A stretch of 64,000 nucleotides of DNA from Methylobacterium sp. Leaf99 (GTDB lineage: Bacteria > Pseudomonadota > Alphaproteobacteria > Rhizobiales > Beijerinckiaceae). Both the position numbers and the translations under genes were made by a program. Position 1 is the stretch's first letter. Each line of letters starts with the position of its first letter. Location: contig NZ_LMMU01000002.1 in the NCBI RefSeq assembly GCF_001422375.1, forward strand, positions 1-64,000, read 5' to 3'. Below, in pieces: positions 17,842-29,104 of the stretch. The notes beneath the pieces were generated by a model. That model was not told where the DNA came from. It saw nothing but the letters and a program-made list of their open reading frames with translations, and searched no databases.

Positions 17842-19710
17842 TCAGGCGGCGGTGAGCAGCCGGGAGACTTCCGCCGCGAGGTCGCCGGACTCGAACGGCT
17901 TGCGCAGGACCGGCAGGTCGGGCGGGATCGGGATCGCCTCGGCGTGGCCCGTGAGGATGAGCACCGGCACGTCGGCCCAGCGGGTCCGCACGATCGCGGC
18001 GAGCTCCACCCCGGTCATGCCCGGCATGGCGAGATCCGCCACCACGAGGTCGAAGCGGGTCTGCTCCAGCAGGGTCACGGCCGAGGCCCCGTCCGGCGCC
18101 TCGCTCTCGCGGTAGCCGAAGGTGTTGAGGAACGAGGCGGTCACGTGCCGCACCTCGGGGTCGTCGTCGACCACGAGGATGCGGGCGGCGGGCACCGGCG
18201 CCGCGGCGGCGGGTTCGGGCGCGACGTCCCCCTCCGCCTCGGCCTCGGCGCGGGGCAGCAGGAGTTCCACCCGGGTGCCCTCGCCGACCGTGCTGGTGAT
18301 GCGCAGGCGCCCGGCCGATTGCTGGGCGAGGCCGAACACCATGGCGAGGCCGAGTCCCGTGCCCTGGCCGAGGGCCTTGGTGGTGAAGAACGGCTCGCAC
18401 ACCCGCTGCAGGATCGCCGGCGGGATGCCGGTGCCGGTATCCGCCACCGCGAGGGCGGCGTAGTCGCCGTCGGCGAGGTCCGGGTCGCCCGCCAGCGACA
18501 CGATCCGGGTCGAGACGGTGATGGCGCCGCCCTCCGGCATGGCGTCGCGGCTGTTGATGCACAGGTTGAGGATGGCGAGTTCGAGCTGGTCGGGATCGAC
18601 GCGGGCCGCGGGCGCCGCGGCGTCGAGGTCCGTGGTCAGGGTGACGAGGCCGCCGAGGCTCCCGCCCAGGAGCTCGCCCATGCCGGCGATGAGCCCGTTG
18701 AGGTCGATGGCCCGGGGCCTGAGGTCGCGGGAGCGGCTGAAGCCGAGGAGGCGCTTGGTCAGGGTCGCGCCGCGCTGGGCCGCCTGGGTCGCGTTGGTGA
18801 CGAGGCGCAGCACCCGCGGCTGGTCGGCGATCTTCGGGGTGGCGAGTTCGAGGCTGCCCAGGATGGCGGTGAGCAGGTTGTTGAAGTCGTGGGCGATGCC
18901 GCCCGCGAGGGTGCCGAGGGCCTGCATCTTGTCGGACTGGCGCAGGCGCGATTCCAGGAGCTTCTGGTCGGTCACGTCGCGCTCGATGATGGCGAGATGG
19001 GCGACCTGGCCCGACGCGTCCCGGATCGGCACGCGGGCGACGCGGCTCCAGCGCTCGGCCCCCTCCGGCCCCTCGGTGATCTCCATGTCCGTCGGCCGGC
19101 CCGACGCGATGGCGGCGGCATCCGCCGAGGCCGCACCGGCCTCCGCCGACGCCGCGGCACCGGGGTGGAGTGCGGCCTCCGTCCGCCCGAGGCAGTCGGC
19201 GACGCTGCGCCCGAGGCGCTCGGCCTTGCGGGCGTTGAGGCGCACGAACCGGCCTTCCGCGTCCTTGAACGCGATGGCGTCGGCCGAATGGTCGAGGAGC
19301 CCCATGAGCAGGGCGCGCTCCGTGGCGAGTTCCCGGCCGAGGCGGTGGCGCTCGTAGGCCTGGCGCACGGCGCCGCGCAGGAGGCTCGCATCCCACGGCT
19401 TGGTGGCGTAGCCGGTGATGCCGCCCTGGTTGAGGGCGGCGATCACCGCGCTCATGTCGGCGTAGCCCGTGAGCAGGATCGCCTGGGCGTCGTGCATGCC
19501 CCGCGCCTGGGCCAGCATGGCGTCGCCGGTCATGCCCGGCATGCGCTGGTCGGAGACGATGACGGCGATGTCGGGCTCGGCCGCCAGGATCTCCAGGGCC
19601 TCGGCCGGCCGGCTCGTGGTGAGCACCCGGTACTCGTCCTCGAACAGGTCTTCGAGGGCGATCAGGATGTCGGGCTCGTCGTCGACGGCCAGGATCGTAC
19701 CTTTGGACAT
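17842..19710 (-). CDS. Hybrid histidine kinase, REC-PAS-HisKA-HATPase-REC
   Basis: 622 residues, cytoplasmic, no membrane segments. The N-terminal receiver has phospho-acceptor D54 in [12 protein letters not shown] domain covers about residues 132-250. The kinase H box is [11 protein letters not shown] with H274, followed by N and G boxes ([28 protein letters not shown]). A C-terminal receiver carries the acceptor in [11 protein letters not shown]. It is the last gene of the chemosensory operon. The ATG at 19710 is preferred; a GTG at 19716 overlaps the previous stop (GTGA). With a receiver at each end it could both take and pass on phosphate. No output domain other than receivers is present. 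Confidence 0.9.
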
Positions 19711-19712
19711 GC

Positions 19713-27114: not shown

Positions 27115-28598
27115 CGGGCGGGCTCCTCCACGGCGGAACGGGCCAAAGCCGCACTCTGCGCCAGTTCCCGCGGCCCGATCCCATCGGCTTCGGCGAGATG
27201 CGCCCCGGCCGGCAGGGTCTGGCCGAGGCGGATGGCGTTGTCGAGGAAGCGGCGGCCTTCCGCCGGTCGCGCCACGGCGATCAGGAGCAGGCCGAGCTGA
27301 TAATGGGCCATGACGAAGCCGGGATCGAGGTAGAGGGCGCGGCGCAACGCGCCCTCGGCCTCCGCCTCGCGCCCCAGGGTCCGCGCCAGGAGGCCGTCGT
27401 AATAGTGCAGGGCCGCCTCCATCGGTGCGACACCGAGGGCCGCACGGGCCCGGCGCCACGCCTCGGCGGTCTCACCGGCGTCGCTCAGGGCGCGGATCTG
27501 CGCAAGATCGCCGGCCCCGACCGCATCGTCCCCCGGCGATCGGACCTCCGACGTCTCCGACCGCGACGTTTCGGCGAGCACGGACTCGCGCGGCCCGTCC
27601 GCGGCGATGGGGTCCGCGGCGCCGGGGCCGCCCGCTTCGGCGGGCCCTTCGCCGATCCACGGGTGGGCGGGCTCCCAAACGGCCGGGTCGGCGACCGGGA
27701 CGGCCGGTTCCCCGGCACCGCCCGGACGGTACGCGACGGTGCCGGGCAGGTTCACCGCCTCCAGGGTGTGGGCGAAGGCCGGGTTGGGCTCGGCATGGCC
27801 GATGAGGAGCCAGCCGTCCGGCACCAGGCGCCGGCCGAGGCTCCGGACCATGCCGAGCACCACCTCCGCCTCGAAGTAGATCAGCACGTTGCGGCACAGG
27901 ATGAGGTCGAACCCGTTGAGCTCGGGCGGCGCGGTGCCGTCGACGAGTTCCATCAGGTTGCGGCGTTCGAACCGCACCATCCGGCGATACTCCGGACGCA
28001 GGGTGTAGGTGCCCTCGCGGCCGGGGCCCGGCCGGATCGGGCCGGGGGCGAAGTAGCGCAGGCGCTCCTCGGGCGGCAGGGTCCGCAGGGCCCAGCGTCC
28101 GTAGAGCCCGGTCCGGGCGGTCGCCAGGGCCGCCGTGCTGATGTCGGTGCCGGTGATGGCGATGCGCCAATCGGGCAGGGCGGGCCCGAGGAGTTCGTGC
28201 AGCAGGATGGCGAGGGAGTAGGGCTCCGCCCCCGTCGAGCAGCCGGCACTCCAGATCGTCAGGCGGCGCTCGTGCGACCGGGCCGCGATCAGGCCGGGCA
28301 GGATCGTGCCGCGCAGGGCCGCGAACTGCTCGGCGTAGCGGAAGAAGAACGTCTCGCCGATGGTGATCTCGGCTTCCAGGGCCGCCCATTCGGCCGCCCC
28401 CCGGGTCCGGTCGTCGAGGAGTGCGGCATAGGCGGCGGCGCCCGGCAGGTCGTTCGCCTTGAAGCGCTTGCGCAGACGATCGAGCAGCAGGTCGTCCTTG
28501 TCGACGTAGTAGTGATGGCCGGTGCGCGCGATGATCCGCGCCTTGAGGGCGGGGAAGGCCGGATCGGTCTGTGAGTCGGGCCGGACGGGCCACTTCAT
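27111..28598 (-). CDS. cheR: CheR methyltransferase with TPR-like C-terminus (WspC-like)
   Basis: 495 residues. The CheR catalytic part (about 1-285) shows ITIGETFFFRY, the SAM-binding WSAGCSTGAEPYSLAILL, TDIS and ILCRNVLIYF. A variable linker is followed by a helical repeat region of TPR type (about 375-470, including AEGALRRALYLDPGFVMAHYQLG). CheR proteins with TPRs are characteristic of Wsp-type systems. It adds methyl groups to the receptor. The ATG overlaps the stop of the first cheW gene (ATGA). Confidence 0.92.
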   Translation of the reverse strand: MKWPVRPDSQTDPAFPALKARIIARTGHHYYVDKDDLLLDRLRKRFKANDLPGAAAYAALLDDRTRGAAEWAALEAEITIGETFFFRYAEQFAALRGTILPGLIAARSHERRLTIWSAGCSTGAEPYSLAILLHELLGPALPDWRIAITGTDISTAALATARTGLYGRWALRTLPPEERLRYFAPGPIRPGPGREGTYTLRPEYRRMVRFERRNLMELVDGTAPPELNGFDLILCRNVLIYFEAEVVLGMVRSLGRRLVPDGWLLIGHAEPNPAFAHTLEAVNLPGTVAYRPGGAGEPAVPVADPAVWEPAHPWIGEGPAEAGGPGAADPIAADGPRESVLAETSRSETSEVRSPGDDAVGAGDLAQIRALSDAGETAEAWRRARAALGVAPMEAALHYYDGLLARTLGREAEAEGALRRALYLDPGFVMAHYQLGLLLIAVARPAEGRRFLDNAIRLGQTLPAGAHLAEADGIGPRELAQSAALARSAVEEPAR

Positions 28599-29104
28599 GC
28601 AGGGCAGGGCCCGAAGGCGGCCAGCCGCTCGGCGGCGGCGCGCGTGAAGCCGTCCAGCCGCTGCCGCTCCTCGACGGTGAGCAGGCGGGCGCGATCCAGC
28701 ACGTGGACCAACCCGTCGCCACGGACGATCTCGGCCGCGACGCAACCGTTGAGGGTCCGGGCCTCGGACACGGGTCGGATCGCCGCATCAGGGACGACGA
28801 CGAGGTCTTCGGCCCGGTCGACGAGGAACGCCGTGGTGGCCTCCGCGTCGAGGACGATGTGGCGATCGTCGTCGGTCTCGGCCCCCTCCCGTGCCGGCAG
28901 GCCGAGGAGCCGGGCGAGATCGACGACGGGCACCGGCACGCCGCCGAGGTTGAGGAACCCGACGAGGGGTCCGCCCGCCGCCGGGGGGGCATGCAGGTCC
29001 GGCAGGGGAAGCACCTCGCGCACGGACGTCCGCGCCAAGGCACAGGGAACGCCTGCGACATCGAGGAGGAGGAAGGCTGTGGTGCCGGACAGGATCTGAT
29101 CCAA
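28595..29104 (-). CDS. cheW: CheW-like coupling protein (first gene of the chemosensory operon)
   Basis: 169 residues from a TTG at 29104. The CheW fold is seen in AFLLLDVAGVPCALARTSVREVLPL and FLNLGGVPVPVVDLARLLGLP. The frame is open up to an ATG at 29245, but the extra 47 residues do not resemble CheW, and a candidate promoter (29193-29222) lies inside that stretch, so the short form is preferred. The gene heads a run of eight genes joined mostly by 4-base overlaps. Confidence 0.78.
   Translation of the reverse strand: MDQILSGTTAFLLLDVAGVPCALARTSVREVLPLPDLHAPPAAGGPLVGFLNLGGVPVPVVDLARLLGLPAREGAETDDDRHIVLDAEATTAFLVDRAEDLVVVPDAAIRPVSEARTLNGCVAAEIVRGDGLVHVLDRARLLTVEERQRLDGFTRAAAERLAAFGPCPA

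Follow-up and report, generated by a model that had tools for sequence, protein, structure and literature searches.

Two histidine kinase genes follow cheB in a chemosensory operon of Methylobacterium sp. Leaf99, which raises the question of where the signal of its sensory array goes. The operon lies in a stretch of 64,000 nucleotides (positions 1 to 64,000 of contig NZ_LMMU01000002.1, assembly GCF_001422375.1; hereafter the window) and consists of eight genes on the minus strand, read from 29104 to 17842 as cheW, cheR with tetratricopeptide repeats (TPR), cheW, mcp (methyl-accepting chemoreceptor, MCP), cheA fused to a receiver domain (REC), cheB, and the two kinase genes, here termed S1 and S2 (Table 1). 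An initial annotation, made from the letters alone, had placed these genes and their domains and described the cluster as a Wsp-like operon in which kinases stand where the diguanylate cyclase should be. Pfam agrees with the genes and domains, to which we add the strand; the observation is thus confirmed, and the interpretation is partly supported. The window's operon showed neither a GGDEF nor an HTH gene, and signalling from CheA to a kinase, as the annotation had proposed, is the best reading of the cluster. The operon probably encodes a non-motility system of the alternative cellular function (ACF) type, related to Che3 of Rhodospirillum centenum, in which CheA would phosphorylate the first receiver (REC1) of S1, S1 would phosphorylate the N-terminal receiver (N-REC) of S2, and S2 would signal to a partner encoded elsewhere.

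The nearest characterized system appears to be Che3, not Wsp. In the published passages on Che3, a cyst-control system that uses the single-domain receiver CheY3, CheA3 transfers phosphate to REC1 of the kinase CheS3 once the competing receiver of CheA3 itself is disabled, and genetics suggests that phosphorylation of REC1 switches CheS3 off (He et al. 2013, PMC3868531). The same passages describe D54, A191 and H453, a PAS domain and an HWE kinase in CheS3. Like Che3, the window has a CheA with a C-terminal receiver, two cheW, cheR, cheB and one MCP (PMC3868531), together with a second kinase that carries two N-terminal receivers, the first predicted to be phosphorylatable. The Che3-like cluster of Indioceanicola (L225; Azospirillaceae) reads REC, W, R, W, MCP, A, B, REC-REC-PAS-HWE_HK (W, R, A and B denoting cheW, cheR, cheA and cheB). 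From cheW through to the second kinase its gene order is that of the window, and its CheA falls in the same 13-row group of the CheA tree. This order agrees with the locus tags of R. centenum, a species placed in the Azospirillum clade: RC1_2133 for CheY3, RC1_2127 for CheA3 and RC1_2124 for the second kinase, there named CstS3 (as given in part of PMC2890560). In the last Indioceanicola protein, REC1 has Asp54, REC2 has Ala192 and the kinase His stands at position 435, and the REC1-REC2 part of S1 is 36% identical to this CheS3-type protein. Judging from the predicted proteins, what differs from Che3 is the kinase type of S1, the presence of a second hybrid kinase and the absence of CheY3: S1 is a HisKA-HATPase protein with no PAS and no HWE_HK match, whereas CheS3 combines PAS with an HWE kinase; the window has S2 where Che3 has CheY3; and REC2 of S1 has Asp191 in the window, whereas REC2 of CheS3 lacks the phosphorylatable Asp.

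Comparison with Wsp revealed a shared gene set in another arrangement. The Wsp system of Pseudomonas comprises two cheW, a cheR with TPR, one MCP gene, a cheA with a receiver and cheB, and its gene order is MCP, W, R, W, A, B, then WspR. The window has the same che gene set and probably belongs with Wsp in the ACF class, but Wsp starts with the receptor gene and ends in WspR (REC-GGDEF), whereas the window starts with cheW and ends in the two kinases. In a quick CheA tree of 99 rows (root not inferred), the window CheA stands in a 13-row group with an SH-aLRT (Shimodaira-Hasegawa-like approximate likelihood ratio test) value of 100, which also holds Methylobacterium bullatum, Pseudoroseomonas, Azospirillum brasilense, Paramagnetospirillum, Indioceanicola and families f5, f11, f52 and f65. 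Three loci of the class (L130 to L132) have the order MCP, W, R, W, A, B, one of them (L131) ending in REC-GGDEF, and their CheA proteins form a clade separate from the window CheA in this tree, which holds no named Pseudomonas WspE. Gene order, last gene and CheA tree thus all speak against a Wsp operon with an exchanged output, and that part of the initial annotation was rejected. The kinase-to-kinase arrangement, which the annotation set apart from the described Wsp mechanism, is not new, since this step was demonstrated biochemically for CheA3 and CheS3 (in the same passages of PMC3868531). The window shares with the ACF class a CheR with TPR (matches below the Pfam cut-off) and multidomain response regulators, by the criterion given in part of PMC3447774. 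Clusters of the kind found in Pseudomonas sp. GD04019 (L165) and its kin have the window's order W-R-W-MCP-A-B and differ in the last gene: in place of a kinase it encodes a large multi-receiver GGDEF protein, whose first receiver is 37 to 40% identical to S1 REC1 (73 to 82 bits; L163, L165, L172, L176, L181, L204). Cluster 2 of Halomonas titanicae is called Wsp-like, with a different gene order, in the available text of PMC5907407.

Analysis of the gene after cheB indicated that a kinase at this place is ordinary for the family. Domains in the gene orders of relatives, in the counts after cheB and in the pairing test below were assigned with profiles built here, which miss HWE kinases. A scan of named genomes with the CheA alignment gave 488 loci, and the counts describe a sample, the best 80 of them, R. 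centenum not being among these. The gene after cheB carried a kinase domain in 27 of the 80, GGDEF in 19, a receiver with neither in eight and a receiver cut by the contig end in five. No receiver gene was seen there in the remaining 21, where the contig ended (six), cheA was not followed by cheB (five), no gene was detected (four), or CheR (four), MCP (one) or CheW (one) came next. Mapping kinase and GGDEF labels on the CheA tree (59 of 99 rows labelled) required at least 8 changes, against a mean of 17 after shuffling. In the consulted part of Munoz-Martinez et al. 2012 (PMC3447774), kinase modules are reported for about 40% of the multidomain regulators encoded in CheR-TPR clusters. Because kinases are common after cheB and the pathway has been published for CheA3 and CheS3, signalling from CheA to a kinase is not in itself new.

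The outputs vary, and S1 REC1 looks like the array-facing receiver retained among them, because it scores highly with the first receivers of genes after cheB, those of GGDEF proteins included. The receivers of CheA, CheB and CheR were set aside, and a stricter rule placed 44 of the 59 loci in which a receiver gene follows cheB. Of these first receivers, 21/44 reached at least 70 bits with S1 REC1, against 0/86 other receivers. At a threshold of 60 bits the counts were 37/44 and 11/86, and the medians were 69.5 and 35.6 bits. GGDEF outputs as well as kinase outputs were among the top scorers. Genome G235 (L077 and L127) encodes a REC-REC-HK-REC-REC-Hpt protein (HK, histidine kinase) with 56% identity to S1 REC1 in its first receiver. 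The gene for this protein lies near one for an Hpt-REC-REC-GGDEF protein and stands about 100 kb from a W-R-W-MCP-A-B cluster in which no output gene was detected after cheB.

The second step of the proposed relay is suggested by the company that S1-type kinases keep outside the S1-S2 clade, where they often stand near receivers of the S2 N-REC type. Among kinases scoring at least 150 bits with the S1 kinase part, 7/11 had such a receiver within 5.5 kb, compared with 8/149 other kinases (Fisher p 4e-6, from loci that are not independent); within 3 kb the counts were 5/11 and 4/149. The test left out S1-S2 clade loci, duplicates, L071, L076, L077 and L080 to L135, including some CheA loci that could have been kept. 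An earlier count with other bounds, clade members and duplicates included, gave 10/16 against 9/190. In loci retrieved by CheA alone, the pairing was 2/2 against 6/131 at 5.5 kb and 1/2 against 2/131 at 3 kb. No CheA was seen in the stretches at L078, L079, L227 and L234, where S1-type kinases have S2-N-type receivers nearby. In Vibrio (L227) and in genome G961 (L234) these receivers are fused to EAL or HD domains, and in L234 (1474-8042) EAL- or HD-bearing receiver proteins alternate with two S1-like kinases, of which one carries a hemerythrin domain.

The predicted phosphosites are conserved. Alignments, each including the window, dropped proteins below a length limit (1 of 47 for S1, 2 of 45 for CheA). 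In S1 REC1 the Asp, Thr and Lys are present in 46/46 proteins; the acidic pair is complete in 45 and gapped in the remaining one. REC2 of the same 46 proteins has Gly at the second acidic position in 35 and Ser, Ala, Cys, Gly or Tyr at the Thr site in 45, while Lys is kept in 40 and Asp191 in 42 (Asn in four). Among 47 aligned S2 proteins, the N-REC Asp and the kinase His are present in all 47 and the C-terminal REC Asp in 46, with one gap. CheA keeps the Hpt His in 40 of 43 proteins (three gaps) and the REC Asp in 43.

From the gene content, the conserved order and phosphosites, and the homology to a Che3-type cluster, we infer each phosphotransfer step, the direction from S1 to S2 and an output elsewhere as follows. 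The receptor, the two CheW proteins and CheA would form a sensory array, with adaptation by CheR and CheB. CheA would hand phosphate to its own receiver, which is a sink in Che3, and to REC1 of the cytoplasmic kinase S1, whose activity would thereby be altered, up or down (in Che3 the effect is inhibition). Active S1 would then phosphorylate S2 N-REC, which may take the role that CheY3 has in Che3, and S2, a hybrid kinase containing PAS, would hand the integrated signal to its partner.

Several points weigh against this serial relay through S1 and S2. By best hit alone, the contrast for S1 REC1 is weak (13/44 against 15/86, p 0.12). The kinase halves of CheS3 (HWE) and S1 (HisKA) belong to different families, and the comparison with Che3 was made through Indioceanicola, R. 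centenum itself entering by its published description. REC2 of the window is only partly decayed, since Asp191, Ser230 and Lys253 remain, and unlike REC2 of CheS3 it might be phosphorylatable. The pairing test has few loci behind it, the majority of them found through their similarity to S1, and its bounds were chosen with the data in view; in addition, four S1-type kinases on cyanobacterial plasmids have no S2-N-type receiver nearby. In genome G414 the S1-S2 pair precedes the che cluster, and the CheA of this genome falls outside the 13-row group. In A. brasilense Sp7 (L226, 11850-14992, in the cluster on ABSP7_p1), the S1 pattern is inverted, since the gene that follows cheB has a REC1 that looks decayed and an intact-looking REC2; an HK-REC frame comes next.

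Other wirings of the same genes were weighed against this evidence. The phosphorylation residues kept in both S1 REC1 and S2 N-REC, and the operon that the two kinases share through 4-base overlaps, would also suit a branched arrangement, with CheA phosphorylating both receivers and S1 and S2 working in parallel on separate or shared outputs. We regard such branching as unlikely, because S2 N-REC is the best hit of 0/44 first receivers after cheB and is unlike such receivers, and because S2-N-type receivers occur near S1-type kinases at the four loci where no CheA was seen. It is also conceivable, with distinctly low probability, that S1 pairs with an orphan CheY3-like receiver and that S2 is independent, modulating that receiver or S1, for example as a phosphatase or through its C-terminal receiver. 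The use of single-domain CheY3 in Che3 (passages of PMC3868531) points this way, as do the 88 receiver matches in the genome, several in short frames, and the employment of orphan single-domain receivers such as CstR by M. extorquens (in the accessible part of PMC13344952). On the other side, of the 11 receivers in frames of at most 175 amino acids (aa) that were fetched from the genome, none scores more than 34 bits with the single-receiver protein in L225 and none stands out as an orphan CheY output. Beside the clusters of 47 loci, viewed with short flanks, the operon strand showed no gene for a single-domain receiver.

An output through cyclic di-GMP, with a Wsp-type operon reaching a diguanylate cyclase indirectly, is very improbable. 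It would draw on the GGDEF gene that stands upstream of the first cheW (cheW1) on the same strand in 4/35 loci with cheW1 visible (47 examined), and on the fusion of S2-N-type receivers to EAL or HD domains elsewhere. The upstream genes encode dCache-GGDEF proteins in three loci of the genus (L034, L036, L228) and a GGDEF-EAL protein in L087; these proteins match no receiver and the two kinds are unlike (27 to 29% identity over part), which argues against this output together with the lack of GGDEF in the window's operon and the position of its CheA outside the clade of L130 to L132. The upstream GGDEF genes were rejected as the output, being not conserved.

Other candidates for the partner of S2 were likewise rejected. 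The genome has five Hpt matches, two of them in short frames, and neither of these orphan Hpt proteins tracks the cluster, so the co-occurring orphan Hpt envisaged in the initial annotation was not borne out. The first short Hpt matches in 4/4 genus genomes tried, strongly only in G001 (74%) and otherwise more weakly and mostly within large proteins, and in 0/14 other genomes, seven of which bear the cluster. The second matches in 16/18 genomes, including 7/7 of the same family that have no S1 match, and is missing in two cluster-bearing genomes. S2 as a CckA that feeds ChpT was also rejected: its likeness to CckA is generic, because it ranks 12th of the 13 matches to the CckA model in the genome (305 bits; top 1144).

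S1 occurs throughout the sampled genus. It is present in 37/37 genomes, that of Leaf99 included (the match is in two pieces in two genomes and cut by a contig start in one), and in M. bullatum S1 is 86.5% identical and the record carries all eight genes. Loci were fetched from 37 relatives, of which 36 are genus mates and one is G040. The full set of eight genes stands in order in 26 of these loci, a contig end truncates 10, and one (L062) is an exception; with 26/37 loci showing all eight in order, the arrangement is not due to chance. In the exception (genome G029), cheA, cheB, S1 and S2 are kept and W-R-W-MCP was not recognized before cheA, where the fetched stretch continues. The same order also occurs in L074, L075, L087, L088, L089 and L090, which belong to other families or to that of G040, the S2 of L075 being without its last receiver. 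The eight-gene order thus recurs across the genus and in other alphaproteobacterial families, and the adjacency of the two kinase genes to cheB, kept in several families, agrees with the annotated view that they are part of the operon.

Beyond the genus, the distribution of the system is patchy. At 1e-55, S1 matched in 8/385 genomes of the class and 11/297 of the order, genus members counted, and in none of six listed genomes of other genera in the same family. In G414, a gene for an S1 protein (49%) and one for an S2-like kinase (30%) stand before W, R, W, MCP, A, B, and the CheA of this genome, sought in its family at 1e-80, matched in 3/39 genomes. Viral contigs gave 32 pattern matches, none of them a relative. 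In Pseudoroseomonas cervicalis (L224), the whole cluster lies on the 195-kb plasmid pL11-C, with the cheB frame split in two.

A stressosome-like setting was found in L078 (G306, 605-6114), where a gene for an S2-like hybrid kinase and one for a kinase with RsbU_N flank genes for a protoglobin-STAS protein, an HATPase_c_2 protein (RsbT-like by context) and a SpoIIE phosphatase. The RsbU_N kinase is 52% identical over the S1 kinase part and has RsbU_N in place of REC-REC. Kinases with RsbU_N are known from stressosome operons (portions of Heinz et al. 2022, PMC9237108, and of PMC12143880). L078 is like the window in having an S1-like kinase together with an S2-like hybrid kinase, and differs in the input, which is RsbU_N with a stressosome-like set there and REC-REC with a CheA array here. 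Tentatively, and with the odds somewhat against it, the S1 kinase and S2 may be an exchangeable two-kinase cartridge, driven by a CheA array through REC1 in these alphaproteobacteria (CheA, S1 and S2 in series) and by a stressosome through RsbU_N elsewhere. The input half of S1 would then derive from the array and be shared with sister GGDEF outputs, and its kinase half would have come with S2. If so, a sensory array and a stressosome could stand in for each other in driving the same kind of kinase pair.

The serial relay through S1 and S2 would carry a CheA-to-kinase pathway, known in biochemical detail from a cyst-forming specialist, over to the genus, in all 37 genomes sampled, and points to a variant in which two kinases act one after the other. 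Methylobacterium is a genus in which genetics is easy. In open-licence PMC text, no title or abstract start on this operon in Methylobacterium or Methylorubrum was found among the papers listed, and in the searchable portion of a Methylobacterium methylotaxis paper (PMC10613068) the operon terms matched only two passages, both on CheA generally.

Table 1. Genes and selected receiver domains of the operon, with positions in the window.
Feature	Position	Strand	Remarks
cheW (W1)	28595..29104	-	169 aa, TTG start; Pfam CheW 63.6 bits; opens cluster in relatives
cheR with C-terminal TPR	27111..28598	-	495 aa; Pfam CheR 150.5 bits; TPR matches below Pfam cut-off
cheW (W2)	26554..27114	-	186 aa; Pfam CheW 77.2 bits
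mcp, methyl-accepting chemoreceptor	24835..26517	-	560 aa; MCPsignal 107 bits, HAMP 42.4, 4HB_MCP_1 22.6 (below cut-off)
cheA fused to REC	22486..24717	-	743 aa; Hpt, HATPase, CheW, REC (Pfam); Hpt His43, REC Asp675
cheB, REC-methylesterase	21413..22489	-	358 aa; Pfam; NCBIfam CheB 325.6 bits, above cut-off
S1, REC1-REC2-HisKA-HATPase, CheS3-like	19713..21416	-	567 aa, GTG start; Pfam
S1 REC1, Asp55, proposed CheA target	21069..21395	-	
S1 REC2, partly decayed receiver, Asp191 kept in window	20643..20996	-	
S2, hybrid kinase REC-PAS-HisKA-HATPase-REC	17842..19716	-	624 aa, GTG start; Pfam (PAS = PAS_4)
S2 N-terminal REC, Asp56, proposed S1 target	19366..19695	-	such receivers near S1-type kinases elsewhere
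S2 C-terminal REC (matched part), Asp561	17938..18180	-	

The genes are tightly joined at five of the seven junctions (W1/R, R/W2, A/B, B/S1 and S1/S2), which overlap by 4 bases; the joining had been somewhat overstated in the initial annotation, because 36 bases separate W2 from MCP and 117 bases separate MCP from A. The N-terminal region of the MCP is a partial match to a four-helix-bundle sensor, with about 175 residues between two hydrophobic stretches (by eye). Codon composition indicated that the adjacent upstream frame is divergent and the adjacent downstream frame convergent, and a sigma-70 promoter scan found no match. On the plus strand of the window at 29729-29847, a candidate branched-chain amino acid attenuator was noticed. 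Its region has one terminator-like site, where shuffles give a mean of 2.6 and thus no excess, and 29728-29847 matches Rfam Atu_C8 weakly (25.4 bits against a cut-off of 50). The candidate consists of a 16-residue frame rich in Ile, Leu and Val and a terminator-like hairpin at 29814-29831, and the gene after the hairpin was taken for ilvB from its position and the acetolactate synthase small subunit downstream.

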